Source of the DNA: Flavobacteriales bacterium
Lineage (GTDB): Bacteria > Bacteroidota > Bacteroidia > Flavobacteriales_D > Sanyastnellaceae
Assembly: GCA_022447625.1 (NCBI GenBank)
Contig: JAKVAX010000003.1
Span: forward strand, 62,001-126,000
Direction: 5' to 3'
Length of the DNA stretch: 64,000 nucleotides
Below, one piece after another: positions 31,166 through 54,635 of the stretch (the first letter of the stretch is position 1; every line of letters begins with the position of its first letter). The position numbers were made by a program, and so were the translations under genes. The notes under the pieces are model-generated. The model saw only the letters and a program-made list of their open reading frames with translations. It did not search any database and was not told the origin of the DNA.

Positions 31166-32353
31166 TCAGTACGACTTATTTTCTCGACGGATCCCAAGTA
31201 CTTTCTTGACCAGACGTGTTGCTGGAGAGATTGACTTCATGATCTGTTCGTGGTATTTATAGTGCTTTGTGATGTAGCTAGGATAGTCTGTGTGTGCCTT
31301 CATCGGCGCGTTCATGACTGCTTCGAATTCAGCTTCGCTAAATCCGAATTTCTTCAGAACGAATTCTTTGTCTTCCTCAAGCATATCAGCGTCATAGATG
31401 GGCTGCTTGAGCTCTTCAAGCGCTTCGTCTCGAGTCATTTGTCCGGAAGCGATGAGTGTAGATAGGTGTGCTTTGCGCTTATCTACTCCAAACTTTTCCG
31501 GAAGGATATATCCTTGGTAGAAGCGAGTGATGATACTCTCGAAGTGCTTGCCTCCGTAGTCACGCCAACCGAGTTCGCGAGAAATGAGTTCTTTTGCTTC
31601 TTCCTTGTTGTAGTCAATGTAATTCAGCGGCATCACCGTCTGAATCTTCTTCACGAATTCATAGTAGGTCTTCTTACCGAAGCTTACATGAGGGAAGGTC
31701 TTCAGTTTCTTCGATCCGAACTGCCTTTGAATCGAACGGATATTCAGCCAGTCATACTTGAACCATCGCCATGCTGAAGGCAGGATGCCTTCAGTAGTGA
31801 TGTTGAATCCGTTCAGCATGTAAGTAATGCCATGCTTTTGAGCCAATCCATAGATCACCGCGAAGATCGCGTGATCTGAAGTCAGCTCCAGATCAATGAC
31901 AGAAGCTTTCAAAAATGATAACTGCAGGTCTCTGAACTCCTCCCAGTCGATGACATGGGTGTGAAGATCAAAGCCACACTTATCGATGATATTGTTGATG
32001 TTCTGATTGGCAATTTCAGAGTTCCATCCATTGTCTAGGTGAACGACTAGCGGACGTAATCCATACTTCTTGCAGAGGTAGACCATGTAGGTGCTATCAA
32101 CACCTCCACTTACTCCTGTAATGCAGTCGTATTTCTTGTTTTTCCCTTCTTCGCGGATCTTGGCGAACACCTCTTCCATCTGACGTTGCCCTTCTTCTCC
32201 TCCGACGAAGAATTTCTCGACACGATCTTGGTATTGGTAGAAGTAATTGCAGACCCCATTTTCATCAAAAGTGATGTCTGGATCAGCAATGTTATCCATT
32301 ACCGTTTTCGTACATACACGTACGTCTTGGGTGGTGTTATTGAGGGTGGTCAT
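31166..32353 (-). CDS. N-acetyl-sugar amidotransferase (WbpG/PseA-like)
   Basis: This 395-residue PP-loop enzyme should convert an acetamido group of a nucleotide sugar to an acetamidino group, using ammonia from the HisH/HisF-like pair just upstream. The PP-loop SGGVDS is at residues 82-87. The N-terminal zinc-ribbon region normally has two C-x2-C pairs. Here only Cys14 and Cys35 remain, with Thr17 and Phe38 at the partner positions, so the metal site is probably lost. WbpG-type proteins with dedicated HisH/HisF partners are known from Pseudomonas aeruginosa O antigens. Confidence 0.85.
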   Translation of the reverse strand: MTTLNNTTQDVRVCTKTVMDNIADPDITFDENGVCNYFYQYQDRVEKFFVGGEEGQRQMEEVFAKIREEGKNKKYDCITGVSGGVDSTYMVYLCKKYGLRPLVVHLDNGWNSEIANQNINNIIDKCGFDLHTHVIDWEEFRDLQLSFLKASVIDLELTSDHAIFAVIYGLAQKHGITYMLNGFNITTEGILPSAWRWFKYDWLNIRSIQRQFGSKKLKTFPHVSFGKKTYYEFVKKIQTVMPLNYIDYNKEEAKELISRELGWRDYGGKHFESIITRFYQGYILPEKFGVDKRKAHLSTLIASGQMTRDEALEELKQPIYDADMLEEDKEFVLKKFGFSEAEFEAVMNAPMKAHTDYPSYITKHYKYHEQIMKSISPATRLVKKVLGIRRENKSY

Positions 32354-32423: not shown

Positions 32424-33182
32424 TCAACGTGAGATTATGTCTTCTGGAGTAGGGTAGGAGATTAGTATTGATTTAGGATTTCTGTCTTTGTAAACGAAGA
32501 TGCTTCCTGCGGCTGCAGCTGAAGCTCCGGTTGCAGAAATGGTTTCATTCATGTCTTCTACGGAGTGTGCTCCGCCACAAGCAATTACCGGAATTCCGAC
32601 CGCACCAGCCACCGATTTAGTCAGCTCGCGATCTAGTCCGCTAAAAGTGCCGTCGCGGTCAGTGTTATGTATTATAAGCTCTCCTGCTCCTGCGGTTTCC
32701 ATGCGTTGAGCAAAGGCGACGATATCTTCTTTGATCACATCACTTGCCGATCGAAAACAAGGACGCATTCCGCCAAACAAGGGTTTCTTCACATCCAAGC
32801 TCACGACTACACTTTGACTTCCATAGGCATCAGCGATTTCTTGAAGAAGCGAAGCGTTCCCAGCGATAGCTGAATTAATAATCACCTTCTCAACCCCTTG
32901 GTCAAATACCTTCTTGGCTTCTTCGAAAGAAGTAATTCCTCCGCCGTAGCCTAGCGGCGAAAAACACTCGCTGGCCATTTCATAGATGAGGTCGGTGTTC
33001 GGTTTTCGTCCTTGCTTTGACGCTGTAATGTCAAAGATAACGATCTCATCGATCATCTTATCGTTGAAGATCTTGATGGCGTTAATCGGGTCTCCGATGT
33101 AGTTCGGTTTTTTGAACTTCACCGTCTTCACAAGTTTGCCGTTATCTACAGTCAGTATGGGTATGATCCGTGCTCTCTGCAT
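32424..33182 (-). CDS. HisF-like synthase/ammonia-channel subunit of the sugar amidotransferase
   Basis: This 252-residue TIM barrel is homologous to imidazole glycerol phosphate synthase HisF. It carries the segment KTVKFKKPNYIGDPINAIKI, typical of the surface-carbohydrate paralogues. Aligning with HisF, the catalytic Asp11 is replaced by Thr11 (IPILTVDN), while Asp130 is retained (VVVSLDV). It is therefore unlikely to make histidine precursor and more likely delivers ammonia to the WbpG-like enzyme. A 70-base gap separates it from that gene, and 1 base from hisH. Confidence 0.88.
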   Translation of the reverse strand: MQRARIIPILTVDNGKLVKTVKFKKPNYIGDPINAIKIFNDKMIDEIVIFDITASKQGRKPNTDLIYEMASECFSPLGYGGGITSFEEAKKVFDQGVEKVIINSAIAGNASLLQEIADAYGSQSVVVSLDVKKPLFGGMRPCFRSASDVIKEDIVAFAQRMETAGAGELIIHNTDRDGTFSGLDRELTKSVAGAVGIPVIACGGAHSVEDMNETISATGASAAAAGSIFVYKDRNPKSILISYPTPEDIISR

Positions 33183-33183
33183 A

Positions 33184-33792
33184 TTACCAGCTTAAAAAAT
33201 TTCCCATCACCTTTAGGCCAACCACATGGCTTTTTTCAGGGTGAAATTGCATACCCGCTACATGTCCTTTTGCAATTCCAGCTGAAAATGAATGTCCGTA
33301 ATCGCAGCTGCAAAGCTCATCTGCTTGGTCATCACATTTCATGTAATAGCTGTGCACGAAGTAATAGCGTGGGTTGGCTTGAATATTTTGAAGCAGTGGA
33401 TGGTCTGATTGAGAAACCTGGATATTGTTCCACCCCATATGAGGTACTTTCAAACCTTGATCTGCTACATCGAAACGAATGGTCTTGGCAGGAATCAATC
33501 CTAACCCTTCACAATCATTCTCTTCGCTGTAATCCGTTAGCAACTGTGCCCCAAGGCAAATACCTAGGATCTTCACTCCAGCCGCTGCGCGTTCCTTGAT
33601 AAGGGTGTCTAAACCGCGCTCGCGAAGATTAGCCATACCAACACCAAAGGCGCCCACCCCTGGAAGGATGAGCTTTTCCGCGCTAGCGAGAACTTCTGGG
33701 TCAGAAGAAATCTTAGCCTTACCGCCAGCTTTCTTGATCATATTCCTTACCGAGGCAAGGTTACCTACGCCGTAGTCAATAATCGCGATCAT
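33184..33792 (-). CDS. HisH-like glutaminase subunit of the sugar amidotransferase
   Basis: This class I glutamine amidotransferase of 202 residues has the catalytic triad in place: Cys79 in GICLGAQLL, and His184 and Glu186 in MQFHPEKS. PGVGAFGVGM forms the oxyanion strand. It releases ammonia for the HisF-like subunit immediately downstream. The context (no other his genes, adjacent WbpG-like enzyme) assigns it to acetamidino-sugar synthesis. It overlaps the preceding gene by 4 bases and contains one TTCCGCGNTAGCG copy. Confidence 0.9.
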   Translation of the reverse strand: MIAIIDYGVGNLASVRNMIKKAGGKAKISSDPEVLASAEKLILPGVGAFGVGMANLRERGLDTLIKERAAAGVKILGICLGAQLLTDYSEENDCEGLGLIPAKTIRFDVADQGLKVPHMGWNNIQVSQSDHPLLQNIQANPRYYFVHSYYMKCDDQADELCSCDYGHSFSAGIAKGHVAGMQFHPEKSHVVGLKVMGNFLSW

Positions 33793-35102
33793 GCTTGCAC
33801 AAAATATGGATATGCATCGAAGCGGTAAGCTTCAAGTCCGTATCGTTCGAAGAACTCGTTTCGAGTGACTGATTCGAGCTCAAGTAGTTTCGTTGAGAGT
33901 TGTTCGCCTGAGTTAAAACAGATGCCATCCAAGGTGGAGCCTTTCATAGGGAAATGCTCCATTCCGTAATTCCCGATCAGGGTCTTGTAACCACAGAATA
34001 GGCGCTCGTAGAGGATGGTGCTGAATGCCGCCGCAGCGATATCCACATGCTCAAAACTCATAGAGGTACGAACGTCAGGCCCTGCTAAAGCAAAATTTCC
34101 ATCGGGAAAAAACTGTTGATAGAACGCTCTGGTTTTCTCCACCAATTCAGGCTTCTTTTCACGAGGGTGGGGGAAGATCATCACCTTCCATCCATCATGT
34201 TCAGAAGTGAATTTGGCAAGGTCTTTCAGCAGTTGTTCTTCAGCTTCTGGAATATTCAATCCGTCATCTGTATGACCTTCGTCTCTGCGTAGCCAACCAC
34301 CATGAGAGTAGTATCCAATGGTCTTTGGCTCAGGCTCGGGTAAGGTCTCGAGGTAGCGATCAATGTAAGTGAAGGCATACTCAGGAACCCACATGTCGAC
34401 TTCGGTGTATTTCACCTCTTTCAAGACCTGGATCTCTTCCTTCTGGTAAGCGCTACTCAGCAATAGACTGTGGCAATACAGTACGCCATGATGGGTGCTT
34501 AATGGTCCCGGACTAGGTAACTTGGTGAAGTCGTCAAGTTCGTCTTCTAGTAGGAGGTAACTCCAGTTGTGGTCGATGAGGTAAGGAGCGAAATCAAAGA
34601 TTCGCTTGATCTTCTGGCTTCGGACCAAATGCAGTAAAGCCGCATTCTCCGCTACAAAAGCGATATGCATCGCCTTATTCGCTCGGTTTGTCGAAGAGAA
34701 GAAACAAGACAACACAATCGGAAGCGCAAACAGAATAAAGGGGATCAATTGCTGTCCCTTGAATGCTGCTGGTAGGTCTTCTTGACTGAAGAACACGCCC
34801 GGAGGTTGTGCTTGCTTTTTGACGTACTCGAATTCTAATTCTTCGAATACAAAGGCAGACTCTAAGATGGCCAATTGTGGCTCGCCTCTCAATGCGTGAA
34901 AGGCATCGGTGCCAGCGCGCATTTTGCGCAGCACACGAATGAGCACCCGAAGGCCAATGGTGGCTTGATTGCTTGCCGCTTGATCCAATCGGTAAGTGAC
35001 ATTCTCATTCATGCACTTCCAGGCATGCCATTCACGGCTGCCTTCTTTGGCCCTTTTCAGAGAACGGAAAGACGCTATGGCTTCTTTGAGCTCTTTACGC
35101 AT
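33789..35102 (-). CDS. Uncharacterised surface-carbohydrate protein, possible GT-B glycosyltransferase
   Basis: I cannot place this 437-residue protein in a named family with confidence. It has a basic N-terminus, one hydrophobic stretch near residues 117-135 (LIPFILFALPIVLSCFF) and a C-terminal half with GYYSHGGWLRRDEG and KVMIFPHPREKKPE. AAAFSTILYERLFCGYKTLI follows these. The H-P-x-E and late S-T-x-L-x-E elements recall CDP-glycerol or polysialyltransferase-like GT-B proteins. It overlaps hisH by 4 bases and the NeuB-like gene by 8, so it belongs to the same translational unit. Confidence 0.6.
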   Translation of the reverse strand: MRKELKEAIASFRSLKRAKEGSREWHAWKCMNENVTYRLDQAASNQATIGLRVLIRVLRKMRAGTDAFHALRGEPQLAILESAFVFEELEFEYVKKQAQPPGVFFSQEDLPAAFKGQQLIPFILFALPIVLSCFFSSTNRANKAMHIAFVAENAALLHLVRSQKIKRIFDFAPYLIDHNWSYLLLEDELDDFTKLPSPGPLSTHHGVLYCHSLLLSSAYQKEEIQVLKEVKYTEVDMWVPEYAFTYIDRYLETLPEPEPKTIGYYSHGGWLRRDEGHTDDGLNIPEAEEQLLKDLAKFTSEHDGWKVMIFPHPREKKPELVEKTRAFYQQFFPDGNFALAGPDVRTSMSFEHVDIAAAAFSTILYERLFCGYKTLIGNYGMEHFPMKGSTLDGICFNSGEQLSTKLLELESVTRNEFFERYGLEAYRFDAYPYFVQA

Positions 35103-35802
35103 CCATTCCCATTACGCGACGAAGTGTCTCAAACTCCGTTGCTGTATTCTTGATCTGCTGAAGGTCATTCATATCCATCGAACAAAGGTGAGCAAGCTCG
35201 CCTGTACGCTGGAATGATTGACGCAGTGTGAAGTGCTTTTCGAGGTATTTCGCTCCGTGTGCAGAGGCGAAGAGGGCTGCGCTATTCCCTAGCGTGTGGT
35301 CAGAAATACCGTGGAAACGACTAATTGCGAAATCAGGCATTTCGAATTCTTCAACCAATGTTGGGTATTTCACGACGCAGTAGAGGTAAGTTGCGTAATC
35401 AACCACTTCAATCTTGTCTACGTCTTCTTTCGGCATATCGGCAGGAATAGAAACGAAAGTTGGCTTCTTTAGCGACATGATATCACGCGTCAACTCAGGG
35501 AATCCAACGTGCATACGTGCAGCCACCTTCATGTATTTCAGATCTAGCTGAACACACCAATCAAGGAATTTCGACGCAAATGGAGTAGCGAATACTGGAA
35601 TTCCGTGGTGATCTCCGAAGTCGCGCAGGTGCTTCAATGTTTCGAAGTCCATAGCATGGCTCTTCGGCTTGTTGAATTGCTCCGGATCGTACAGCTGAAC
35701 TTTAACAGCTTCGGCTCCACCAAGCTTTGATTGAAGAATCATTTGTTCCGCGGTAGCGAGATCTCCGCTGAACTGAGGTGATATTTCTGAAATGATGAAC
35801 AT
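35095..35802 (-). CDS. Short NeuB-family synthase lacking the SAF domain
   Basis: The 235-residue product is a TIM barrel of the N-acetylneuraminate synthase family, which condenses phosphoenolpyruvate with an amino sugar. ISEISPQFSGDLATAEQM, GGAEAVKVQLYDP, VFATPFASKFLD and HGISDHTLGNSAALFASAHG with EKHFTL correspond to the catalytic core. The C-terminal antifreeze-like SAF domain of full-length enzymes (about 340-360 residues) is missing, with no frameshift visible. A full-length homologue lies at 46641-47693. The activity of the short form is uncertain. Confidence 0.8.
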   Translation of the reverse strand: MFIISEISPQFSGDLATAEQMILQSKLGGAEAVKVQLYDPEQFNKPKSHAMDFETLKHLRDFGDHHGIPVFATPFASKFLDWCVQLDLKYMKVAARMHVGFPELTRDIMSLKKPTFVSIPADMPKEDVDKIEVVDYATYLYCVVKYPTLVEEFEMPDFAISRFHGISDHTLGNSAALFASAHGAKYLEKHFTLRQSFQRTGELAHLCSMDMNDLQQIKNTATEFETLRRVMGMDA

Positions 35803-35820
35803 GGTTCTGGAATTTCTAGG

Positions 35821-37650
35821 TTAGTTGTGTTGCTCAAGAAAGATCTTGGCATTTATGAAGTTGAAAAGGAATTTCTTGTAACTATTTGGGTACTCTTCTT
35901 TGTTCAGCATCTCTTCCATCTTCGAACGGTCGAAGTATTGGTAGATCGCTGAATCATCAAGGAAGTAAGCACGATGCTCAGGGTTTTTGAAGTCAAAGAT
36001 CGAGTTGATCGATGCATTGAAACCTTTCTTCTCACGACTCAAGCGTACTTGATCATTGAGAATTCCCTTCATCGAAGAGCGGAGAATGTACTTGTTGTAC
36101 CCTTCATTGATCAATAGCTCACTTGGGATGCTGTAAGCCCATTCAAAAAGACCCTTGTCAAGGAACGGGCTTCTATTCTCCAAGGAGTACTTCATGCTGT
36201 TCAAATCATCTTCGTGCAAGATGACACGCACGACTTCATTGAAGAGCTCATTCATCATACGGTTGCGAAGGAGACGATCACAGTATTTTGTCTCCGAAAA
36301 CGGCTCATGGAAGTCTTTGTTCAACTGGCTTCGGAAGAGTTCGTTGTTCAGATAAATGTGGTCACGCTTATCTGGGTTATCGAAGTATAGATCAAATTTT
36401 CTGAAGTCAGGGTGGCGAACAAACTGAAGAGGGTATTTCTCCCATTCCGCTTTGAATCGCGCGAATTCCGGATGATTCCTCATCTCGTACATGTGAAGGA
36501 CGAAGTGATCGTAGTATCCGGTGAATAGCTCGTCGGCAGCAGTTCCTGAAATGGAAATCTTAAATCCATTCTTCGCAATCTGCTCTGAAAGGAAACTGTG
36601 GACGAAATATGAAATCGTAGCCACCGGCGCATCGTGGTATTGAACCAGCGACTCGAGGCGACTTATGTTATCTTCGTTTGGATCGAGGATCACCTTGGTG
36701 CTTTCACAACCGGTATCTTCAATTGTAGCTTGAATGTTCTCGTATTCATCGTAACGATGGTCGTTATCAATGATAGAGAACGTGTGTGCGGTGACATTGA
36801 ACTCTTTCGCTGCAATTGAGACCAAACTCGCAGAGTCAACTCCACCGCTTAAGCAGAAAGCAAGAGGTACATCTGAACGCATGCGTAGCTTGACACTGTT
36901 AATCAGACGTTCTCTCGTTCCTTCAATGGCTTCTTCCATTGACATCTTCTGCTCGTTCAGCTTTGGAATCCAGTATGGAGATTCTTTGACCTCGCCTGGG
37001 TTATTCACTGAGACAAATCCATTGTGCGAAAGCGGCAATTCGCGCACACCATGGAAGAAGGTTTCATTCGTTTTGTACAGCGACTTATGACCGTTCACGA
37101 TGTAGCGAAGAATGTGGTCGCTATTTACTTCAAACGGACGATTACCCAATGCTTTCAGGGCCTTTACTTCAGAAGCGAAGTACACACCATCATTGGTTTC
37201 ATGCAGGTAGAAAGGCTTTTCTGCGAATCGATCTCGAGACAACATCAAACGTCCGAGTTTGTCATCCAGCAAGGCAAAAGCCCACATTCCTTCAAAGCGT
37301 TCAGTGCAGCGATCGCCCCATTCTAGGTATGCTTTCACCAGCACTTCTGTATCTGAATCTGTCTGAAAAGCATGACCTAGGGTAATCAGTTCCTCTTTGA
37401 GCTCAACATAGTTGTAGATCTCTCCGTTGAAGGCGAGATGAATATGTTCAAAATGGAATGGCTGATTTGAACGAGGATCAAGATCAATAATGCTCAATCG
37501 ACTGTGCAGCAAGTTGACTTGGCTATCGCCGAAGACGTGGGTGCTATGTCCATTCGCATCCGGACCACGTTTCTCCATCGTTTGAAGCGCCGCGTTGATA
37601 CAAGCTTCATCAAGCTTTTCTTTACCGATATATCCAGCTATTCCGCACAT
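35821..37650 (-). CDS. asnB: Asparagine synthase-type glutamine amidotransferase (second paralogue)
   Basis: The 609-residue product starts MCGIAGYIG with catalytic Cys2, followed by KRGPD, NGEIYNYVEL and TDSDTEVL of the glutaminase domain. The PP-loop of the synthetase domain is SGGVDSAS near residue 267. It is clearly diverged from the paralogue at 18475-20343. Its position between the NeuB-like and NeuA-like genes suggests amidation of a sugar acid of the polymer rather than asparagine supply; this is inference. Confidence 0.9.
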   Translation of the reverse strand: MCGIAGYIGKEKLDEACINAALQTMEKRGPDANGHSTHVFGDSQVNLLHSRLSIIDLDPRSNQPFHFEHIHLAFNGEIYNYVELKEELITLGHAFQTDSDTEVLVKAYLEWGDRCTERFEGMWAFALLDDKLGRLMLSRDRFAEKPFYLHETNDGVYFASEVKALKALGNRPFEVNSDHILRYIVNGHKSLYKTNETFFHGVRELPLSHNGFVSVNNPGEVKESPYWIPKLNEQKMSMEEAIEGTRERLINSVKLRMRSDVPLAFCLSGGVDSASLVSIAAKEFNVTAHTFSIIDNDHRYDEYENIQATIEDTGCESTKVILDPNEDNISRLESLVQYHDAPVATISYFVHSFLSEQIAKNGFKISISGTAADELFTGYYDHFVLHMYEMRNHPEFARFKAEWEKYPLQFVRHPDFRKFDLYFDNPDKRDHIYLNNELFRSQLNKDFHEPFSETKYCDRLLRNRMMNELFNEVVRVILHEDDLNSMKYSLENRSPFLDKGLFEWAYSIPSELLINEGYNKYILRSSMKGILNDQVRLSREKKGFNASINSIFDFKNPEHRAYFLDDSAIYQYFDRSKMEEMLNKEEYPNSYKKFLFNFINAKIFLEQHN

Positions 37651-37652
37651 GG

Positions 37653-38234
37653 TCAGGCAGTATGTAGTGCTTTGAACTCGTCAGAATTCTCGAGTTCTTG
37701 AATGTCTTCAATGGTGTGCACGTCAAGGTTGTTCGCCACAACGAAACCGCAGTGTGCACTGAGGAATTCATTGAAAAGAGCGTGCTTCTTTACGATTCGG
37801 AAAGCGGCATTTTGAACGCCATTTTCATCGGCGCTCATCACCTCCCAAAGTTTGTGGTTGACCATCAAGTCATAGCCACTCTGGAAATGAGCTGCGGTCA
37901 GTTCAGGACTGTTCGCCTGAGCTACAATAACGTTCTCTACTTCTCCGTCAGCAGATACCAACGGGTCCTCCACGGCTTGGCGGATAGCTACGATTTTCGG
38001 AGTGTGGTCATCAGCAAGTTCCTGCGGACGAAGCAACGACTTCGCTCCATACTGTTCTCCAACCTTCAGAATCTCTTCGTCGTCTGAACTCACAAAGATG
38101 TCATCAACGAACGCACATTCTTTCAGGGCATCAATCGTATAAGCAATCAGTGGCTTGCCGAGAAGTGGGTAGATGTTCTTCTTCTCCAGGCGTTTCGAGC
38201 CGCCTCGTGCGGGGATGATAGCGATGGTTCTCAT
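37653..38234 (-). CDS. Short CMP-sugar-acid cytidylyltransferase (NeuA-like)
   Basis: This 193-residue enzyme has the N-terminal signature IAIIPARGGSKRLEKKNI and LGKPLIAYTI, with VSSDDEEILKVGEQYGA, of CMP-acylneuraminate/CMP-pseudaminate synthetases. It should activate a nonulosonic-type acid with CTP. It ends with the family segment VHTIEDIQELE but is 30-40 residues shorter than usual, with the middle part after QANSPELTA compressed. It overlaps the downstream end of the interrupted glycosyltransferase gene by 4 bases. Confidence 0.8.
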   Translation of the reverse strand: MRTIAIIPARGGSKRLEKKNIYPLLGKPLIAYTIDALKECAFVDDIFVSSDDEEILKVGEQYGAKSLLRPQELADDHTPKIVAIRQAVEDPLVSADGEVENVIVAQANSPELTAAHFQSGYDLMVNHKLWEVMSADENGVQNAAFRIVKKHALFNEFLSAHCGFVVANNLDVHTIEDIQELENSDEFKALHTA

Positions 38235-39319
38235 AAAATGCGGTCGAGGATATCACGTGCAATCACCTCCGCTCCATTCGTCGCCATTTCGTGATTCTGC
38301 ATGTTCTGTAGAATCGACTTATACTCATGGTCGATAAAATGCGGGAGGAAACTGTCTAAGTTATTTTCAAAAGTGTCTAACCCGATGAAGGTGGCTAGGC
38401 CTCCTTTCTTCAGGTTGATAATGTTCTCATTCATTTCAGGATTCATCGCCTCTCCAAGAAGCAACATCGGTGTGCGCAATCCAATGCACTCACTAATAGT
38501 GTTGAATCCAGCACGAGCGATAACGAGGTCCATTTCATTGATGTAGTCTACCATGAGTTCATTCTTATCAATGAACGAAAGGTTGTCTTGCTCACGCTCG
38601 AGGTTCGAAGAGACAAAGAACTGGTAGTCATCCAGCGGACGTATATGATCGAGGGCTTTCAGGATACTTGGTCGAAGTACTCCTGCGCCACTATCAATAA
38701 TCAAGATTTTAAACTTCCCTGAATCTTCCACTTTCTTATGGTTGATTTCTCCTCGAAGAATCAAGGGCACTTCTTGAGCATTGTCGCTGTAGTAGTGCAG
38801 GATTTCTTCAGGGGTGAAGGGAGGGAAATACAAGGCATCGGCCATCTTCGCCATTTCAAAGAAACGATAGACTAATTGCGTTTTTAATGGTGGCGGATAC
38901 AGCTTTGAGAAGAACCAATCCCACGTGAAATGGGCGATACCAAACGAAGGCTTGTTGTTTTCCTTGGTGATCGGGAAGGCCTCATAAACAAAGTCAGAAA
39001 TGGCGAAATCATAGTCCCATTCTTCTAACTCTTCTTTGATGTACTCCTCACTTTGTTCGAGGTATCGAGCATACTCTACATGGATCTTGTCAACGTCTGG
39101 CGAACCGTTCGCTTTCTTGTGCCAAGTGATGTTGTTGTATTTGTCGATGGTCTTGACGCCGGTGATCTATCTAGTCGCTGCTTCGAGGTGACGATGGGTC
39201 TGAACCGTGAGGTCAAAATCGCTGTGCAATGAGCGTAGGGCTTCAATGATAGCGCGTTGACGAACGATGTGTCCATATCCTTCGTCTGACAGAAAAATTT
39301 TTCCTTTTAGAGTCTTCAT
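38231..39319 (-). pseudogene. MurG/PseG-like GT-B gene interrupted by one in-frame amber codon
   Basis: The reading frame from the ATG at 39319 encodes about 362 residues. It begins MKTLKGKIFLSDEGYGHIVR, with the G-x-GH-x2-R phosphate-loop motif of MurG/PseG/MJ1255-like proteins. Codon 51 is TAG (complement of 39167-39169), and the same frame then continues open to 38231. The C-terminal half shows VIARAGFNTISECIGLRTPM, the donor-site pattern of GT28-like enzymes. No frameshift is needed, so this is one nonsense change, a read error or readthrough. Either a glycosyltransferase or a nucleotide-sugar hydrolase of the neighbouring NeuB/NeuA-like pathway is possible. The downstream part could restart at the ATG at 38854. 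Confidence 0.8.
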
Positions 39320-39332
39320 TCAAACAAGCCAA

Positions 39333-39370
39333 CTGAAGCATGACAAAAATCGTGATAATCTATGCTTCAG
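39333..39370. repeat. Perfect 9-base inverted repeat in a divergent intergenic region
   Basis: CTGAAGCAT (39333-39341) and ATGCTTCAG (39362-39370) are perfect inverted copies separated by 20 bases. They lie just upstream of the ATG at 39319, in the 268-base gap before the PKD-protein gene at 39588. The spacing fits a protein-binding site better than a terminator hairpin. Nothing else is recognisable in the gap. Confidence 0.5.
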
Positions 39371-39587
39371 CATACTAAGATGAATGAAGTTTCCCACAAT
39401 TGGAAGCGGGTTATCTCCTTTCAGAATCCGCCTACAAGTTCAGTTTTTCGAAAGACTGCCACCACGAATTCCGAATTCTAACCGAATACGACCATTCACG
39501 CTTACAATAATGCCTCATTCTAAAGGGGGAAGGATGGCATGGTTTTGTAGGGGTTCTTTGTATTACAGTAACAGAACAACTACTGAC

Positions 39588-40686: not shown

Positions 40687-42375
40687 CTACTTGACAATCA
40701 AGCGCGTGGTATGCTTGAAGTCTCTTCCGTGAAGGATGATCGAGTACGTACCCGGTTGCAAATCAGAAGGAATGTCAAACTGCAATGCAGAAGCTTGTTC
40801 TAGCATGGCCACAGGTTGTGTGAATACAACGCGTCCGCTGAGATCATAGATGTCAACGGTTCCGCTTCCTTCTAGATTCAAGCCTCCTACAGCTAGTGTA
40901 GCTATCCCTTCGTCAATAGGGTTAGGATAGACACTGAGTGAATTTGAGAAGAAGTCAAGTTGAATCGGGCTCATCTCTTCATAGTCAGGGGCAATTCCAG
41001 AAGGGTCACCTATTTCAATCTGACAGAAGAAACCATAGTCACCTTCTTGTGGATCATTACATGCATCTTGAGTTCCGAGCATTGGCTTCACGCCAACACG
41101 GTAGAAACCGTCAGGAATACCCAATGGAAGAAGGTAAAGCGATGTCGTATTCACTGAATAAGTCACAATGGCTGGACCAATCGGAGTCATCGTAGGATCA
41201 TTCTCTTCGATGGGAGCAATCTGCCATGCATATTGATCTACCACCTCCAAGAATTCACATTGAAGTGTAGCACCAGGATACTGTGTTGTGTTGCAGTATT
41301 CTGGTCTCACATTCACGTAGGGAAGCGAGTTAATGATGATGAACTCAGGTGCACTCCAAGGGCCCCAAACTCCACAGTACTCGGCGCGTGCTTCAATCAC
41401 GTAAATCTTGTTGTAGCGAATACAATCAATAAGGTCGAAGTAGCAGAATGAAGTTGAGCTTGCTCCGATGTGTGTAAGCACAGTAGATCCACCATCTGTT
41501 GTCAAACGCCATTCGATGTTCTGTCCGTCACCTACATAACGCGCCTTCACATTTTCGGCCATGTCGTAGTTCAATCCTGCGTAGCCAGGCTCCAGCTCAG
41601 TAGTTGGAGCAGCCTCAGTGTAGATCTGTCGTACTTGGTTGTAACCACACCAGTAGCCATCAACTTGTACTTGAACATACACATCATACGTTCTGTCGAA
41701 GCAAAGGCCGCCAACTGCGTTGAGGTTAATGATACCATTTGATCCAGTTACCTCTGCAAGGAATTGGTCTCCGCTATCAACATCTATAAACAGCCAACGA
41801 GACCCTTGAATCAAGCTATTGTAAGGTGTATAGGTAACACGGTTAATTGTTTGATTAATTCGGTATCCTGGAAGACCTACATCCGGAGTAAAAGTTGGGA
41901 ACCAACCAGCGCGAACTTCAGAAGCAGGCAGGTACTCAGTACAAATGTTAAAAGAACCTGCGCCTGCGCTATTTGCAGAGTGAATTCGTAGGTAGTAGTC
42001 GTCGCCGGATACGAGAGTGTTCGCGTAAAGCGTCTCACCTGAATTAGCTCCATTGGTATTCTCACAGGCAACAGAATTGAGCCCATTATCTAGTACTTCG
42101 ATGACCATGTCGAAGTTAGCTGTTGTTCCCGTGATTTTGATGGCTTGTGTGGTTGCGGTGAACGTGTACCAAACGTCGTCATTATCTGTTCCGCTGCATG
42201 CAGCTTCTCCAGAACCTGAAGCACCAAGACTACCCGCAGTTGAGCAAGCAAGACCATCATATGTGTTCTGCATAAAATCGCTCAGGGTGATTGCCACAGC
42301 AGTGCTAGGGTCTTCTTGAGCCATCAATCCACAAGCCGCCAATAGCGACAGTGCAATAGGTATAATTCGTTTCAT
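40687..42375 (-). CDS. Secreted protein with T9SS type A sorting domain
   Basis: The 562-residue product has a signal peptide (RIIPIALSLLAACGLMAQ). Cys15 in LAAC could be read as a lipobox, but cleavage after LMAQ is more usual for T9SS cargo. An N-terminal PPC-like beta domain (DDVWYTFTATTQAIKI, GDDYYLRIHSANS) is followed by a middle region without a named domain. A classical type A sorting domain closes it: YPNPIDEGIATLAVGG, VDIYDLSGRVVFTQP and LQPGTYSIILHGRDF. It converges on the PKD-protein gene with a 1-base gap. Confidence 0.87.
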   Translation of the reverse strand: MKRIIPIALSLLAACGLMAQEDPSTAVAITLSDFMQNTYDGLACSTAGSLGASGSGEAACSGTDNDDVWYTFTATTQAIKITGTTANFDMVIEVLDNGLNSVACENTNGANSGETLYANTLVSGDDYYLRIHSANSAGAGSFNICTEYLPASEVRAGWFPTFTPDVGLPGYRINQTINRVTYTPYNSLIQGSRWLFIDVDSGDQFLAEVTGSNGIINLNAVGGLCFDRTYDVYVQVQVDGYWCGYNQVRQIYTEAAPTTELEPGYAGLNYDMAENVKARYVGDGQNIEWRLTTDGGSTVLTHIGASSTSFCYFDLIDCIRYNKIYVIEARAEYCGVWGPWSAPEFIIINSLPYVNVRPEYCNTTQYPGATLQCEFLEVVDQYAWQIAPIEENDPTMTPIGPAIVTYSVNTTSLYLLPLGIPDGFYRVGVKPMLGTQDACNDPQEGDYGFFCQIEIGDPSGIAPDYEEMSPIQLDFFSNSLSVYPNPIDEGIATLAVGGLNLEGSGTVDIYDLSGRVVFTQPVAMLEQASALQFDIPSDLQPGTYSIILHGRDFKHTTRLIVK

Positions 42376-42394
42376 TTCAGGTCAGTTCTCTCTC

Positions 42395-42419
42395 TATCGC
42401 ACCTCATGAAGGTGCGATA
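42395..42419. promoter_or_regulatory. Perfect 10-base hairpin upstream of the T9SS-protein gene
   Basis: TATCGCACCT (42395-42404) and AGGTGCGATA (42410-42419) form a perfect 10-pair stem with a CATGA loop, about 20 bases before the ATG at 42375. No T run follows on either strand, so it is not a standard terminator. It may be an operator or a 5' leader structure. A second, imperfect stem (CCCAAAGAAT/ATTCTTGGG, about 42466-42490) lies nearer the end of the upstream gene. Confidence 0.5.
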
Positions 42420-42508
42420 TACGTGCATAAGATATAAAAAATCATGCGTTCATACTATTTGGACTCCCAAAGAATCGTCTCATTCTTGGGGTTCAAATCA
42501 GTTCATTT

Positions 42509-43876
42509 CTAAGAGATTAGCTGGGCGATCGCCTGTGGGTCGTAAGGTCCGTAGACTTCTGGTCGTTGAACCTTGTTTTCTTTCGTACCCGATTGATACA
42601 AAGATATAGGATCGTCATCAAACTCGATAGGTGTGGCAATTCCTTGCCTTGCCATTGAGGCTGCGTAGTCTGCTCCGGGAGTGTACTTCTGAAGGCTCAT
42701 GTTCTCTACACCCAAGCCCATGGCGTCAAAGAAAGTAGTGCTATACACCGAAATTTGAATGAGTGACTGAGAAAGGAGATCCATCAAATTGGCTGTCTTT
42801 CCGTAAACCGTGCAATTCGGATGATCGTTGAGGTGTTCGTAGAGCTCAGGTTCCTTTTCGTAGGGGTGAAGTTTGATCCATAATTGCCATTCTGGGTGCT
42901 GTTGTTCGATGGTGCGTAACAACGATTCCGCGTAAGCGACATAATCTTTAGGCATGTTCTTCTGAGCGCCAATAAAAACAGCTTTCACCTTCTCACGGCC
43001 CTGATACTTCTCCCAGCCATCGGTCTGAAGACTGTAGTCACCGGCAATGATCAAGTTTTGAGGATCGTACTCATGACCTTGCGCAAGTACAGTCTTCCAG
43101 TATTGACCAAACAATACCAATTGGTCAGGGAAGATGGCTTGAGCGGCAAAATCTTTGACCATGTCGTGATATACATAATACAAATCTTCCGCTGCGATAA
43201 GGCCATGCTGAAATTCAATCACTTGAATATTCAACATCTTGGCGGCAGCGATAATTCCCTCACGGTGATAGTGGTTGGTCATCAGAAGAGTCTTCACCCC
43301 CTGGCCTTTGAACAGACGGTAGTAGCGGTGGAATTCTTCAAAGAACAGATGAAGAGAGGTGCCCAGATAGGCAGGACCAATTCTGTGTTTACTATTCTTG
43401 TAGACCATCACAACATCTTCAAGCACTTTGCGCTCAGTGGCATCAAGGTGTTTGTTGCCGAAAGACTCAACCTGTTGTTCCCCTACATCGAAAATTAATC
43501 CACTGCGGTGCTGGTGATCACGGATCACAGAGATCTTATCTGCACCAATGGTATCGATGATCTTCGAGAAGTAATACGATTGCTCTTTGCCTTCCTTGTC
43601 GAACCCGGTACGCCCGTCATCAAGAAGAACAATCTCTTTGAGCTTCGAGCGGCGTTCTTTCCGGCGATAAGAACGCAGGGCGAACACCACCTGCTGGAAC
43701 CAGATGGGCTTGTCTAAACGGTGAGGTATGATTTTATGCGTGGTATTGGTCACCTCGTAGGTGATCGCGTGTTGCAAGATCTTGTAGTAATGGAAGATCT
43801 TCCCGCGACCGATGTCTGGAGAGTCCAGACGTTGGTCAATAAGTTGCTGTAATTCAGTGAATGGTAACAGCTGCAT
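42509..43876 (-). CDS. Uncharacterised GT-B-like surface carbohydrate transferase
   Basis: The 455-residue product has no family I can name with certainty. The central VIEFQHGLIAAEDLYYVY and the C-terminal WQLWIKLHPYEKEPELYEH are the two landmarks shared by capsule-type GT-B enzymes (CDP-glycerol, Kdo and polysialyl transferases). LISVYSTTF-like residues (IQISVYSTTFFDAMGLGVEN) complete the nucleotide site. It lies directly downstream of the flippase gene and is probably a glycosyltransferase of the repeat unit. Donor unknown. Confidence 0.65.
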   Translation of the reverse strand: MQLLPFTELQQLIDQRLDSPDIGRGKIFHYYKILQHAITYEVTNTTHKIIPHRLDKPIWFQQVVFALRSYRRKERRSKLKEIVLLDDGRTGFDKEGKEQSYYFSKIIDTIGADKISVIRDHQHRSGLIFDVGEQQVESFGNKHLDATERKVLEDVVMVYKNSKHRIGPAYLGTSLHLFFEEFHRYYRLFKGQGVKTLLMTNHYHREGIIAAAKMLNIQVIEFQHGLIAAEDLYYVYHDMVKDFAAQAIFPDQLVLFGQYWKTVLAQGHEYDPQNLIIAGDYSLQTDGWEKYQGREKVKAVFIGAQKNMPKDYVAYAESLLRTIEQQHPEWQLWIKLHPYEKEPELYEHLNDHPNCTVYGKTANLMDLLSQSLIQISVYSTTFFDAMGLGVENMSLQKYTPGADYAASMARQGIATPIEFDDDPISLYQSGTKENKVQRPEVYGPYDPQAIAQLIS

Positions 43877-43910
43877 AATGGCTTATCTGATGGCGCAAAG
43901 CTAGTAAAGC

Positions 43911-45371
43911 TTAAGCTGTTTTTATGGATTGAACTTCGCGAATGATTCCTTTTCCTCTTTTCATGAACCAAATCAAACAGGCAGCAAGCAGGGCTGCTGT
44001 AATCCCCGCCTTGATCATCCAATTGAATTCTACCGCGAAGGTCACGAACACTCCCGTTAAGGTGATGAAGAAGAAGATCGGAATTGGATAATAGCTCAAA
44101 GGCAAGTATTGCTTTGTGTCTTTGAAAAGGTGCCCAGAAATACCCATATACATGTAGCAGAAGAAGGTAGAGAACACAGACGATTCAATTCCGAAGAATG
44201 GAACCAGCGCCAAATTCAATACGACATTCAAAATTCCAGCGGCAGTGGTGATCTTGAAGAGGGAAGTTGTCTTTTCATTGAAAATAACGAACTCTACTGA
44301 AGCCACGTATAGCGGGCGATAACAGAAGGCCATGAACAAGAAAATGGCATACTTGTACGAATCAGCCAAGCCGTCAGTATTATTCAGAAAGAAGAACTTA
44401 AACACCTCTTTTGACCAAAGACCAGCAAGAGTGGCAGCCACATAACTAAAGCCCAGCCAAAGGAAGGTGAACTTCCGAATGATCAAGTGTACATCTTGGT
44501 TCTTGTCTCTGAACAAGCTGAAATAGATCGGAGATACAACCGTGTTCACCTGACCTGAGAAGTGGTTGAAGTAACTCGCGAAACTGTAGGCCACATTGTA
44601 CATACCAATGGTAGCGGTACCCACGTTCGAAATTCCGTTGCACTGGTCAAGGACAATTCGATCGCTCGAAGTCAAGAGGTAATCAGAAAACTTGTGTGGT
44701 ACCAAAGGCAGAGAAATCTTAAGCCAACCGCGTATCCGCTTCCCCCGAAGACTGAAGCTCGGTAGAATCTTCTCGGCTCCATAAATGATGATTGCAAAGA
44801 AGATTCCTTGGAACATCACACTGACGAAATTCGAGATGAAGAAGCCCAGGTATCCCAACTTGTAGATGTAGATCGTGACGAAAGTTGTGATCACCGTTAA
44901 TACGCCTGCAATTGCGGTACTCACGTGTACCACGTTGTGCTTGTGTCGGAACTGCATGAGGCGCATTCCAATACCGCGCGTCAAATCGAAGGTCACCATT
45001 GGTGTCACCAATAGCGCGATGATGGTCCATAAATGGTCGGCCGGTACGTCATTCCGGAACACAAAATAGATCAAGGCTGTTGCCGAGACGCCGTAAAAGA
45101 TCTTGTACAAGAGCAAGAAGCCCATGTACTGTGACCAATATGATTTGAAGAAGCGCTCTTTCTTGAAAAAGGCATTCTGAAATAGTGGAGACATCCCGAG
45201 ATCTGCGATCATCGAAAGCAGCCCTAAATATCCCATTGCCGTTCCATAGACGAAGTAATCGAAGCTGGTAAGAAACTCCGAAATGATCGGATATAACAAG
45301 AGGTTCGCAAACATAGGAACCTGACTTGCGAAGGTGTAAAGTAGACTGTTCTTGAAGACGAACTTCAGCAT
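43911..45371 (-). CDS. wzx: Polysaccharide flippase (Wzx-type, MATE/MOP superfamily)
   Basis: The 486-residue protein has 12-14 predicted membrane helices. It starts LKFVFKNSLLYTFASQVPMF and contains FSDYLLTSSDRIVLDQ, where the S-D-R-x-x-L element of polysaccharide transporters is clear. It should flip the undecaprenyl-linked repeat unit across the inner membrane. The stop of the DUF4910-type gene upstream and this start share one base. Together with the Wzy candidate and the Wzc-type kinase it defines a Wzx/Wzy-dependent pathway. Confidence 0.92.
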   Translation of the reverse strand: MLKFVFKNSLLYTFASQVPMFANLLLYPIISEFLTSFDYFVYGTAMGYLGLLSMIADLGMSPLFQNAFFKKERFFKSYWSQYMGFLLLYKIFYGVSATALIYFVFRNDVPADHLWTIIALLVTPMVTFDLTRGIGMRLMQFRHKHNVVHVSTAIAGVLTVITTFVTIYIYKLGYLGFFISNFVSVMFQGIFFAIIIYGAEKILPSFSLRGKRIRGWLKISLPLVPHKFSDYLLTSSDRIVLDQCNGISNVGTATIGMYNVAYSFASYFNHFSGQVNTVVSPIYFSLFRDKNQDVHLIIRKFTFLWLGFSYVAATLAGLWSKEVFKFFFLNNTDGLADSYKYAIFLFMAFCYRPLYVASVEFVIFNEKTTSLFKITTAAGILNVVLNLALVPFFGIESSVFSTFFCYMYMGISGHLFKDTKQYLPLSYYPIPIFFFITLTGVFVTFAVEFNWMIKAGITAALLAACLIWFMKRGKGIIREVQSIKTA

Positions 45372-46654
45372 CAGATCAGCCCTTTAGCCCGACAGTTTGC
45401 AACATGTTCCTTGAACTTCAAGGCAGAGGTTTTTCGTCGTTCTGCGATTTCGATCAAGTCTGTTTTTCCATCAGCAAAGCTGAGGAAATGCAACAGGTTG
45501 TGAAGGTTTTCCCGGTCGGTATCCGGGTCTACAGAATCAGGGTACAAGCCGCGTAGACCTAACTGAGGTTCGCAGAATTGTACTTCATTTCGATACATAT
45601 CATTGAGCTCAAGCACTTCTACGAAATCAACGTAGGTGTTGATGGTGTCAACCATATGCTCAAATGAGATGAAGTCTTTATTGTCAAAGGAAGTATGATA
45701 CTCCTTGTATCGCTGGTATGGAGTGCGCATGAGACTACCTACAGGTAGGTTGAATCCTGGACTGCAGTACTGTCTTTCATCACTACCGCCCACAGCAAAA
45801 TCAATCACTTCATGCTTTTTACCGCTGTAGCGTAGCACATGTTCGGCAACTCGAGTCGCCAAACAATCAACGCGTTTGGAACGCTTGAAAGTCAAGTCTC
45901 CTCGGTCTCCTACACAGGTCAATACATATCCAGCATCGAGCTTTTCTAGTAATTGACCGCCTACTCTGTCGAGATAAGCAATGATGCCAATCGTTTCTGG
46001 AGCAAATACAAAGCGGTAGGTGTACTTGCGCTTGGGCATCGCCGCAATCTTTTGATAGAGAAATGCCTGAACCAAAGGCCCACTGAGCTCGTTGTTCGCC
46101 ATACTTGGATGGCAGACGTAAGTTGAGAAGAGAATCTCCCGGTTGGTAGATCCAGGAAGTACACATTCTCCATAATCAAGGTGACCTTGTTCTAAGTCGC
46201 TTTCAATGTAAACGCGATAGCTACCTTCCTTCGGAAGCGATTGCCATTGTTCTTCTGACATGCAGAAACCCCACGTTTCACGATAGTAACTCGTTACGTA
46301 TGGAATAGCCTTCGGCATAGAAGGAAGCGTGCGTACATGCTTTGAAAGCTCTTCGTACGAGATCTCTTGATCTACAGGAGTAGAGTAGGAGATCACATGT
46401 AAGTTGTTCTCCTTAAGATCACAAATGCGTTGTCCGTCTGGTGTAGTGATATACGCCTCGCGAATGTTCCATTCTTTCGGAACCGTCCAGTCAAATACCT
46501 TGGTGCCACTGGCCACGCGGTAACGTTCCATCGGAACGATTTCCGACAGAATATCTAATGTGTCTCGTACGCCTTCTCCCGTTAAGCTTCTGCAAATCGG
46601 CCAGAGACGATCAAAGTAGGATTCAATTTCCTTTTCAAGCTCAAGAGAGCGCAT
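45371..46654 (-). CDS. DUF4910/DUF2172-type aminopeptidase-like protein
   Basis: The 427-residue product resembles the DUF4910 (aminopeptidase-like) family that is frequent in bacterial polysaccharide clusters. YFDRLWPICRSLTGEGVRDT is the family start. HPSMANNELSGPLV and PETIGIIAYLDRVG fit an M28-peptidase-like core with possible zinc ligands (the His of CHPSMANNE, and Glu). A peptidase is out of place in a sugar operon, so a deacetylase or deamidase action on a sugar intermediate is plausible but unproven. It overlaps the NeuB gene by 14 bases. Confidence 0.78.
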   Translation of the reverse strand: MRSLELEKEIESYFDRLWPICRSLTGEGVRDTLDILSEIVPMERYRVASGTKVFDWTVPKEWNIREAYITTPDGQRICDLKENNLHVISYSTPVDQEISYEELSKHVRTLPSMPKAIPYVTSYYRETWGFCMSEEQWQSLPKEGSYRVYIESDLEQGHLDYGECVLPGSTNREILFSTYVCHPSMANNELSGPLVQAFLYQKIAAMPKRKYTYRFVFAPETIGIIAYLDRVGGQLLEKLDAGYVLTCVGDRGDLTFKRSKRVDCLATRVAEHVLRYSGKKHEVIDFAVGGSDERQYCSPGFNLPVGSLMRTPYQRYKEYHTSFDNKDFISFEHMVDTINTYVDFVEVLELNDMYRNEVQFCEPQLGLRGLYPDSVDPDTDRENLHNLLHFLSFADGKTDLIEIAERRKTSALKFKEHVANCRAKGLI

Positions 46655-47693
46655 TCCAAACGAGGATTTCGTCTTCTTCGATTGTCTTCAATGCCTGCTT
46701 GCCTAGCACTTCGTTGATATGACGTGGGCTGATTCCTTTGGCAGGACGTTTCCACGTTAGATCGTCGCGTTCGATGGTTTTTCCTTCCGGAATTGCTCGA
46801 GCTGCTACGAGGCTTCGGCGTGCATTTTGACGTGATTTTTCTTCGCTTTCGAGGGCTGTAAGTTTGAATGACCCAAGCAATTCGAAGGTTTTGTCCATCA
46901 CCTTCCAGAAGTGCTTCATGTCTTCTTTGTCCATAGCGTGGTAATGGTCATTACCTGGAAGAGTCTTGTCGTGGCTGAAGTGCTTTTCAATGACTGCAGA
47001 ACCCAACAAAGTGGCCATTTTCATCACTTCCATATCCTTAGGTAAGGTGTGGTCGCTGTACCCAGGAACATGGTCAGGGAAGTTGCGGATGAGGTCTTTG
47101 ATCATACCCAGGTTGGCATTCTGATCCTCCGTAGGGTAGTTCAATACACAGTGCATCAAACAGAGTTTGTTCCCGTGCTTTTCAATCGTTTCAACTGCTT
47201 GCTGCACCTCCCAGAGGTAGGCGGCTCCAGTCGAAAGAATCATCGGTTTCCCGAATGAACACATGTGCTCAATGAAAGGAAGGTTCGTTAAATCAGAAGA
47301 AGAAACCTTGAAGACCGGCATCAGGTCATTCAAGAAATTGGCTGATTCAACATCGAAAGGAGTACTCATGAACTCAATACCTGCTGTTTCACAGTACTTC
47401 GCGAGTTCTTCGTATTCCCCTTTCCAGAACTTGTCGTATTTCTTGAAAAGTTCAAACTGAGATTCGGTCGGCTCTTGGCTTAGGTCCCAGTAGTAAGGTG
47501 AGTCTTTTGATGCAATAGTTTCAGCTTTGTAAGTCTGAAATTTAATCGCGTGCGCACCACCTTCTGCCGCTTCATCAATCAGTCGTTTTGCTAGATCCAT
47601 TGAACCTTCGTGGTTCACTCCAGCTTCTGCGATAACGTAAGGACGAGTCAATACTCGTGGGTCGTAGTTATCGAGGAATTCTGTCAGTTTCAT
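46641..47693 (-). CDS. neuB: Sialic/nonulosonic acid synthase (NeuB family, full length)
   Basis: This enzyme condenses phosphoenolpyruvate with a free amino-sugar to make a nine-carbon (or similar) sugar acid. The 350-residue product starts at the ATG at 47693 (MKLTEFLDNYDP). The TIM-barrel core shows VIAEAGVNHEGSMDLAKRLI, HAIKFQTYKAE, FMSTPFD and PGYSDHTLP with VIEKHFSHD. The C-terminal SAF domain (SLVAARAIPEGKTIERDDL, VLGKQALKTIEEDEIL) is present, unlike the short homologue at 35095. An upstream in-frame start would overlap the SDR gene and is less likely. The substrate is not predictable. Confidence 0.93.
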   Translation of the reverse strand: MKLTEFLDNYDPRVLTRPYVIAEAGVNHEGSMDLAKRLIDEAAEGGAHAIKFQTYKAETIASKDSPYYWDLSQEPTESQFELFKKYDKFWKGEYEELAKYCETAGIEFMSTPFDVESANFLNDLMPVFKVSSSDLTNLPFIEHMCSFGKPMILSTGAAYLWEVQQAVETIEKHGNKLCLMHCVLNYPTEDQNANLGMIKDLIRNFPDHVPGYSDHTLPKDMEVMKMATLLGSAVIEKHFSHDKTLPGNDHYHAMDKEDMKHFWKVMDKTFELLGSFKLTALESEEKSRQNARRSLVAARAIPEGKTIERDDLTWKRPAKGISPRHINEVLGKQALKTIEEDEILVWNALS

Positions 47694-47706
47694 AGGGTCA
47701 GGTTTT

Positions 47707-48522
47707 TCACCAGACGGTCCAACCGCCTTCAACAAGCATATTATCTCCTGTTACATAGCTCGATGCATCTGATAGGAGATAAATCAGTGCTCCAGCAACT
47801 TCGTGATTATAGCTTAGGCGCTCCATTGGAGAGAAACGCGCAAAATTCTGTTCAAACTGTTCTTCGTGGTTGTTCCACACACCGTGGGGAGTGATCATGT
47901 TCACACGAACTTTCTTCTGTGCCCAGTATGAAGCGAGATATCTAGAAAGTGCGTCAACTCCTCCTTTCGAGGCGCTATATGCCGCCGGACAACCCAAACT
48001 TGTTCCTTTGTAGAGGTTCTGGTTTGGTGCTACCACAGAGTAAGTAGATGGAATATTGATGATGCTACCACCACCGTTGTCAGCCATCCATGCTCCGAGC
48101 ACCTGACATGTAAGGAAAGTACCTTTTAGGTTGATGTGAACTACGGTGTCCCAGTTGTCATCTGATACTTCTTCGAATGGTTCGAAAATGAGGTGAGACT
48201 TGTTTTGGTGTCCGTTCACAAGTCCGTCAATGCGACCGAATTTGTCTAGAACAGCATCTTTCAATCCGTTGACTCCTTCTCGCGAAGAAACGTCTAGCGC
48301 AACACCAAGCATCGGACGTCCATGACGTTCTTCAAGTTGAGCTGCGTAGTCAGCAGGATTGGATTGTGGGATATCAGCGGCGACCACGTGTGCACCGAAC
48401 TGAGCTGCTGCCTCGCAAAAGGCGCGGCCTACCAGTCCACAAGCACCAGTGATTACCACCACTTTGTCATTCAGTTCGAACTTCTTTCTAAAGTCAATCT
48501 GAGTAGGGTCGGTCGTTCTCAT
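47707..48522 (-). CDS. Short-chain dehydrogenase/reductase
   Basis: This is a 271-residue classical SDR with the cofactor motif TGACGLVGRAFC, the catalytic Tyr and Lys in YSASKGG, and Ser in the preceding NIPSTYS segment. The NGHQNKS stretch replaces the usual NAG motif, which is slightly unusual. It lies between the NeuB and class III aminotransferase genes with 0-13 base gaps. It probably oxidises or reduces a sugar intermediate of that module; which step is unknown. Confidence 0.9.
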   Translation of the reverse strand: MRTTDPTQIDFRKKFELNDKVVVITGACGLVGRAFCEAAAQFGAHVVAADIPQSNPADYAAQLEERHGRPMLGVALDVSSREGVNGLKDAVLDKFGRIDGLVNGHQNKSHLIFEPFEEVSDDNWDTVVHINLKGTFLTCQVLGAWMADNGGGSIINIPSTYSVVAPNQNLYKGTSLGCPAAYSASKGGVDALSRYLASYWAQKKVRVNMITPHGVWNNHEEQFEQNFARFSPMERLSYNHEVAGALIYLLSDASSYVTGDNMLVEGGWTVW

Positions 48523-54288: not shown

Positions 54289-54302
54289 AGGTGTAACCGG
54301 CA

Positions 54303-54310
54303 CAAATATA
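54303..54310 (-). promoter_or_regulatory. -7 promoter box for wzc and the polysaccharide locus
   Basis: The minus strand reads TATATTTG, a perfect TAnnTTTG, 14 bases upstream of the ATG at 54288. On the other strand TAACTTCG (54371-54378) is a one-mismatch -7 candidate for the exosortase cassette. The two promoters would be divergent within a 128-base gap. Confidence 0.5.
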
Positions 54311-54337
54311 AGAATGCGATCCAGAGTTCTTTTCGCT

Positions 54338-54367
54338 TAGAAATGTATTTCATCTAGAAATCTATTT
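54338..54367. repeat. Direct repeat between the divergent wzc and exosortase promoters
   Basis: TAGAAATGTATTT (54338-54350) and TAGAAATCTATTT (54355-54367) are 13-base direct repeats differing at one base, with a 17-base period. They sit between the two candidate -7 boxes and could bind a shared regulator. Confidence 0.5.
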
Positions 54368-54416
54368 ATGTAACTTCGCACCAACTGAATTTTATCCAGT
54401 TCTAACACCAATATTC

Positions 54417-54635
54417 ATGAAATCTACGTGGCTAGCCGGTATTTTCTCTATTGTTCTTGTGGTTCTCCCTATGATCATGTTTGGTCAGGATGCACCATTC
54501 CCTGATAGTGGAGGTTCTCCTTGTGATGGTCCTTTTGGTCCTGTTTGTCCTATTGATGGTGGGGTAAGCCTTCTTGTAGCTGCAGGAATGGCCCTTGGAG
54601 GAAAAAAGGCTTACGATATCTACCGTAAGGGTTAA
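54417..54635 (+). CDS. PID-CTERM-like miniature exosortase substrate
   Basis: The 72-residue product has an N-terminal signal (STWLAGIFSIVLVVLPMIMF) cleaved near GQ. About 21 mature residues with two Cys (36 and 44) and many Gly/Pro follow. Then comes the sorting signal: CPIDGG at 44-49, a hydrophobic helix (VSLLVAAGMALGG) and a basic end (KKAYDIYRKG). This is the layout of exosortase-recognised C-terminal signals of the Bacteroidota PID-CTERM kind. After both cleavages only a peptide of roughly 20-25 residues would remain. Its TAA overlaps the exosortase ATG (TAATG), so substrate and enzyme are translated together. Confidence 0.8.
   Translation: MKSTWLAGIFSIVLVVLPMIMFGQDAPFPDSGGSPCDGPFGPVCPIDGGVSLLVAAGMALGGKKAYDIYRKG

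Follow-up and report, generated by a model that had tools for sequence, protein, structure and literature searches.

A single in-frame TAG codon in a conserved, predicted GT-B fold glycosyltransferase gene of a Flavobacteriales draft genome

Background

SpsE of Bacillus subtilis is a NeuB-like protein and SpsF is a cytidylyltransferase. In the proposed CMP-legionaminic acid pathway of the B. subtilis sps cluster, these two proteins catalyze the last steps, and two putative glycosyltransferases adjoin (PMC7439481). To that extent, the sps cluster is a partial parallel to the gene module analyzed here (PMC7439481), which, unlike sps, encodes short NeuB-like and cytidylyltransferase-like proteins together with an asparagine-synthase-like protein.

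The glycosyltransferase gene of this module is interrupted by a stop codon. Among the structures matched by the model of the intact protein, YojK (7vm0_B, Z 26.7), a macrolide glycosyltransferase (2iya_A, Z 26.4) and MurG (3s2u, Z 24.4) have the same two-domain fold, while the aligned regions share 7-16% sequence identity; YojK is the best match. At the sequence level, the best NCBIfam match is the MJ1255/VC2487 glycosyltransferase family (TIGR00661, E 8.6e-16), yet the score is far under the curated cut-off (58.1 vs 195.9 bits). With early bacterial pseudogenes, in which a single nonsense codon disrupts an otherwise intact gene, the locus shares the one stop, the absence of an indel, the mostly synonymous divergence and the lack of a stop in the orthologues compared; a nonsense allele of this kind is ordinary.

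The window, that is, the whole stretch of 64,000 nucleotides that was analyzed, spans positions 62001-126000 on contig C23 of assembly G000 (3.9 Mb, 76 contigs, 99.82% estimated completeness). The features discussed below are collected in Table 1.

Table 1. Coordinates of the interrupted gene, its neighbours and the other interrupted genes (window positions unless a contig is named)
Feature	Position	Strand	Details
Glycosyltransferase frame, interrupted once	38231-39319	-	362 codons + stop; PF13528 + PF04101; GT-B fold of G002 orthologue (predicted)
In-frame TAG, codon 51	39167-39169	-	Leu in G002; no stop in 31 relatives
ATGA overlap of glycosyltransferase stop and next gene's start	38231-38234	-	Also in G002
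Short cytidylyltransferase-like gene	37653-38234	-	193 aa; best NCBIfam match PseF, below cut-off
Asparagine-synthase-like amidotransferase	35821-37650	-	
Short NeuB-like protein	35095-35802	-	235 aa; no SAF domain listed
Further genes of the run	33184-33792, 32424-33182, 31166-32353	-	
Hairpin	39332-39371	-	RNA fold; 10-pair stem, 39371-39362 with 39341-39332
Mid-gene stop, Thioredox_DsbH gene			Codon 133 of 729
Mid-gene stop, gene between murC and ftsA	C23, ~147,100-147,900 (outside window)		TAA, codon 175 of 257
Mid-gene stop, PorE/OmpA-type gene	C9, from ~54,785 (outside window)		TAA, codon 544 of 683; intact in G002
Frameshift, UvrD/PcrA-type helicase	C23, from ~261,958 (outside window)		One-base deletion, frame lost near codon 142 of 792; intact in G002

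Identity and predicted fold of the glycosyltransferase

With the TAG read as Q, the translated frame passes the Pfam model Glyco_trans_1_3 (PF13528; 31.3 bits, gathering cut-off 25), and it also passes Glyco_tran_28_C (PF04101; 31.2 bits, gathering cut-off 22); the corresponding scores of the intact orthologue from a genome of the same genus (G002) are 29.4 and 29.7 bits. A sequence search of the PDB with the glycosyltransferase yielded no match at E 0.01. The structure of the intact G002 protein, modelled from an alignment of 28 sequences (mean pLDDT 92.9), matches GT-B enzymes over its full length (residues 1-362; 50 matches listed, Z 23.2-26.7), and the product is accordingly predicted to be a glycosyltransferase of the GT-B fold, with two Rossmann-like domains. 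The protein had been described from the sequence alone as MurG/PseG-like, a label that holds for the fold, given the match to MurG, but not for membership in the MurG family (TIGR01133; 20.5 bits, cut-off 250.25); no PseG model was among the NCBIfam families listed for the protein at E <= 0.001. In the model, residue 51 is the last residue of the helix formed by residues 45-51 of the N-terminal domain.

The stop codon and its counterparts in orthologous genes

The sequence-only reading reported a frame from 39319 to 38231 that is open apart from TAG at codon 51 (39169-39167), with AGA before the stop and ATC after it, and this description proved correct: the minus-strand frame runs from an ATG to a TGA and has a single stop inside it. 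The claim that no indel is involved was likewise borne out by an alignment with the G002 orthologue that is gapless across all 363 codons, and so was the coherence of the sequence on both sides of the stop, with the motif DEGYGHIVRQ (residues 12-21) upstream and a post-stop fragment that alone passes PF04101 (30.4 bits vs 22). Judged by its full-length homology to intact genes elsewhere, the interrupted frame is not a chance ORF.

The G002 genome, assembled in one contig, is about 93% identical to the window at the DNA level over positions 1-39931. The two copies of the glycosyltransferase gene differ by 68 bases in 64 codons, of which 54 are synonymous, 9 missense and 1 nonsense; codon 51 of G002 is CTG (Leu), two base changes away from TAG. 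The predominance of synonymous changes (54 of the 64 changed codons) indicates that the gene stayed under purifying selection through most of the period after G000 and G002 diverged, and because the rest of the gene is nearly unchanged, the loss would be recent relative to that divergence. The two genomes are identical over the 165 bases of 39175-39339, a region made up of codons 1-48 plus 20 upstream bases; from position 10337 on, only three longer identical runs occur in the aligned part of the window.

Sixty genomes, G000 itself and 59 relatives, were searched for the glycosyltransferase, and 12 gave a match. This number counts G000 and a weak match in G055 (E 9e-4); among the 12, an internal stop is present only in the G000 copy. 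The relatives of the gene for which names are available are mostly MAGs labelled as Flavobacteriales or its families. For the comparison of codon 51, three loci that do not reach this position were removed from the 33 found in contigs of relatives, and G002 was added to the remaining 30, giving 31 sequences (two of them partial, L045 and L047; L046 and L047 share an assembly). All 31 have a sense codon at position 51, and the matched stretch of none of them contains a stop. The residues at this position are Ile (10), Leu (7), Tyr (5), Phe (3), Asn (2), and Met, Ser, Thr and Lys (1 each), so that L, I, Y, F or M occupies it in 26 of the 31. Orthologues that naturally begin after codon 51, raised earlier as a possible counter-observation, were not found among close relatives: full-length matches start at residues 1-8, and those starting later are located at contig ends, except for the weak G055 match (residues 158-309).

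An active fragment initiated at an internal start at 38854 had also been put forward for testing and appears unlikely. The first in-frame ATG, GTG or TTG past the TAG is indeed this ATG, at codon 156; of the 30 invariant alignment columns, 6 precede residue 51, 11 lie in residues 52-155 and 13 after them, and a product starting at codon 156 would lack 17 of the 30. From the fold and the invariant residues, we infer that translation would stop after 50 residues, within the N-terminal domain, that no enzyme would be made, and that neither fragment should act as one. A second copy or replacement paralogue was not detected in the same genome at E <= 0.001; with no replacement copy and with the restart losing 17 of the 30 invariant residues, the assembled allele should be null.

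Other interrupted genes

Breaks of this kind were sought by comparing G000 with G002, with G001 as an outgroup, over about 390 kb (232,751 + 79,324 + 77,931 aligned bases). The set comprised 202 G002 frames with a G001 orthologue, of which the 180 gapless ones were scored for stops. In G000, 4 of the 180 contain a mid-gene stop, compared to 0 of 184 in the reverse direction, and a single frameshift that removes most of a gene (UvrD/PcrA) was found among the 202 frames, compared to none among 205 in the reverse direction. Ten further rows have indels in G000; apart from UvrD/PcrA and the gene at 55423-57018, these are compensated or located near gene ends. A possible fifth nonsense allele is the gene at 55423-57018, which is cut short at codon 460 of 532. 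Of the four stops, two each require a pair of changes in the same codon, and a third is directly preceded by a changed base. The gene between murC and ftsA had no Pfam or NCBIfam match; hence, it is denoted FtsQ by position only. A plasmid search gave no match.

Several candidate breaks were discarded. In the first control on G000, two of five stop rows were dropped: one stop, at codon 876 of 877, coincides with the natural gene end, and the other falls in a leader, at codon 5. A stop row in frame 217866-219566 was dropped as well, this frame being not coding-like and absent from the set that has a G001 orthologue. For the reverse comparison (205 frames, of which 184 are gapless), no mid-gene break was left in G002: one stop row and two near-start frameshifts represent frames extended beyond the real start. 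Seven cases were inspected; in four the break lies only upstream of the point where the G001 match begins, two lack a match in G001, and the seventh is 43480-44022. There, and in the stop and near-start frameshift rows at 41254-43815 and 52299-54557, the G002 frames are complete (157, 806 and 738 aa, respectively) and start after the break.

Private changes in the two genomes

In 170 gapless genes, private amino-acid changes number 295 in G000 and 167 in G002, with synonymous changes almost as numerous in one as in the other (2089 vs 1961; Fisher p 5e-7). The amino-acid replacements private to G000 are slightly more radical than those private to G002 (mean BLOSUM62 0.86 vs 1.23, p 0.014). When genes are binned by rising identity to G001, the excess in G000 per 1000 conserved codons is 5.5, 3.1, 4.3, 5.3, 2.4 and 1.0, that is, not monotonic and lowest in the most conserved class (at least 80% identity to G001). 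This pattern is closer to the one expected of a proportional, selection-like effect (relaxed selection) than to uniform error, which it fits less well, in what is a weak test because the last class rests on 56 vs 40 changes.

In the four genes with stops, the private changes in G000 and G002 number 4 vs 2, 8 vs 1, 6 vs 4 and 11 vs 3; three of these G000 counts include the stop, and leaving it out gives 3, 7, 6 and 10. The gene between murC and ftsA accounts for the 8 (stop included) vs 1 in its sister, and several of its changes crowd around the stop. In the glycosyltransferase, there are three private missense changes in G000, two of which flank the stop within three codons; at one of these two, codon 54, the state in the window is probably ancestral, judged by a wider outgroup set. 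A mutator effect of the UvrD/PcrA frameshift was considered and rejected: the single-base private changes comprise 120 transitions and 119 transversions, and this lack of transition dominance gives the mutator no support.

Origin of the stop codon

The stop most likely reflects either a recent loss-of-function mutation of an ordinary kind or an error in the sequence, with no new decoding mechanism involved. We put the probability that it is a recent, private nonsense allele of a conserved GT-B glycosyltransferase gene, representing early pseudogene formation, at about 0.52. The additional private changes in the genes with stops favour real relaxed constraint, but local patches of error would look alike, and a real allele has against it the two base changes required from the sister's codon and the presence of only three private missense changes, two of them beside the stop. 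That the TAG is a consensus or assembly error and does not exist in the organism, or that it combines alleles of different strains in a single codon, is an explanation to be taken seriously, at somewhat under even odds. It is in line with a draft in 76 contigs, with four mid-gene stops and one frameshift in one direction of the comparison and none in the other, with the double changes in two stop codons and the change just before a third, and with the more radical private changes; damage such as that in the gene at the FtsQ position is, moreover, hard to accept in a living cell. Since the breaks affect genes that are usually important (the murC-ftsA gene, UvrD/PcrA and the PorE-like gene of the T9SS), the chance that some of them are consensus errors is raised. 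On the other side, sequence error dominated by substitutions at such a level would be unusual, and uniform error would produce an equal excess in every conservation class, whereas the excess is lowest (1.0 per 1000) in the most conserved genes; at face value, uniform error explains about a third of the whole excess, although the counting error is large enough to allow half or more. The conservation-class test weighs, though weakly, against uniform sequencing error as the sole cause; local error patches may still be present.

Readthrough and phase variation, which the sequence-only reading had listed next to recent nonsense mutation and sequencing error, both gained no support, and the latter two options survive. 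Decoding of the TAG at codon 51, programmed or by suppression, would produce the full-length enzyme and would account for the well-preserved frame after the stop, but it is very improbable: RF1 is intact (521.8 bits, cut-off 423.25) and 99% identical to that of G002, TAG serves as an ordinary terminator at 37 of 163 compared frame ends, and none of the relatives compared has a stop at codon 51. Furthermore, the other three mid-gene stops are TAA, at positions where G002 has Glu, His and Glu, so that no single inserted residue fits; on RF1, TAG usage and this misfit, recoding was rejected. ARAGORN, applied to the locus of every tRNA match (33 in all, with 150 of the 238 initial candidates scored), identified no tRNA with a CTA anticodon in this list, which is incomplete, as tRNA-Asp is missing from it. 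A broader version, in which unusually high readthrough lets the lineage live with TAG and TAA inside the frames of several conserved genes, the glycosyltransferase and the gene at the FtsQ position among them, is more improbable still. Phase variation often targets surface-glycan genes, and a reversible ON/OFF switch would be in keeping with the function suggested for this locus; in a functional split gene, the fragment from codon 156 would work independently. Such a switch or split is scarcely credible here, because there is no slippage tract at 39167-39169, with nothing repeated beyond two copies of AGAT, the TAG differs from the sister codon by substitution only, without an indel, and no ATG, GTG or TTG lies between the stop and codon 156, whose product would be without the invariant positions noted above. 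With neither tract nor indel at the site, phase variation was rejected.

Nonsense alleles in surface-glycan genes are common strain variation, and a single codon matters little. The several private breaks in this draft, including those in usually important genes, imply that claims of gene loss made from it need reads. A real nonsense allele would make the strain a naturally occurring knock-out of a conserved, uncharacterized glycosyltransferase.

Gene neighbourhood and upstream hairpin

The glycosyltransferase gene is the first in a minus-strand run (Table 1). Its ATGA overlap with the cytidylyltransferase-like gene suggests that translation of the two may be coupled, and the early stop may thus also reduce translation of the second. 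Downstream of the short NeuB-like gene, the run continues with a gene for a 437-aa protein without a family match and with three further genes, two of which (32424-33182 and 31166-32353) pass the models for AglZ/HisF2 acetamidino-modification and WbuX N-acetyl sugar amidotransferase. A longer NeuB-type gene with the SAF domain is present at 46641-47735. The gene set suggests a conserved surface glycan module of the nonulosonic acid type, in which the two short forms, cytidylyltransferase-like and NeuB-like, both below curated cut-offs, may catalyze non-standard steps; from this gene cluster, the surface glycan would be expected to lack one sugar linkage in the absence of the enzyme. Of the 29 relative loci scanned, 20 have the cytidylyltransferase-like gene at most 100 bases downstream of the glycosyltransferase gene; at one locus it lies on that side at a distance of 745 bases, and at three others it is immediately upstream. 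The trio of cytidylyltransferase-like, asparagine-synthase-like and short NeuB-like genes (35095-38234) recurs, whole or in part, beside the glycosyltransferase gene in relatives.

A scan for promoters and terminators returned counts near those of shuffled sequences. Roughly twelve bases ahead of the glycosyltransferase start codon, the transcript is predicted to fold into a hairpin (-16.4 kcal/mol, z -3.1 vs shuffles) that is also found in G002 (-19.7 kcal/mol, z -3.7), where one A-U pair is replaced with U-A, both sides having changed. On the comparison of these two sequences, the hairpin is a possible leader or binding-site structure.
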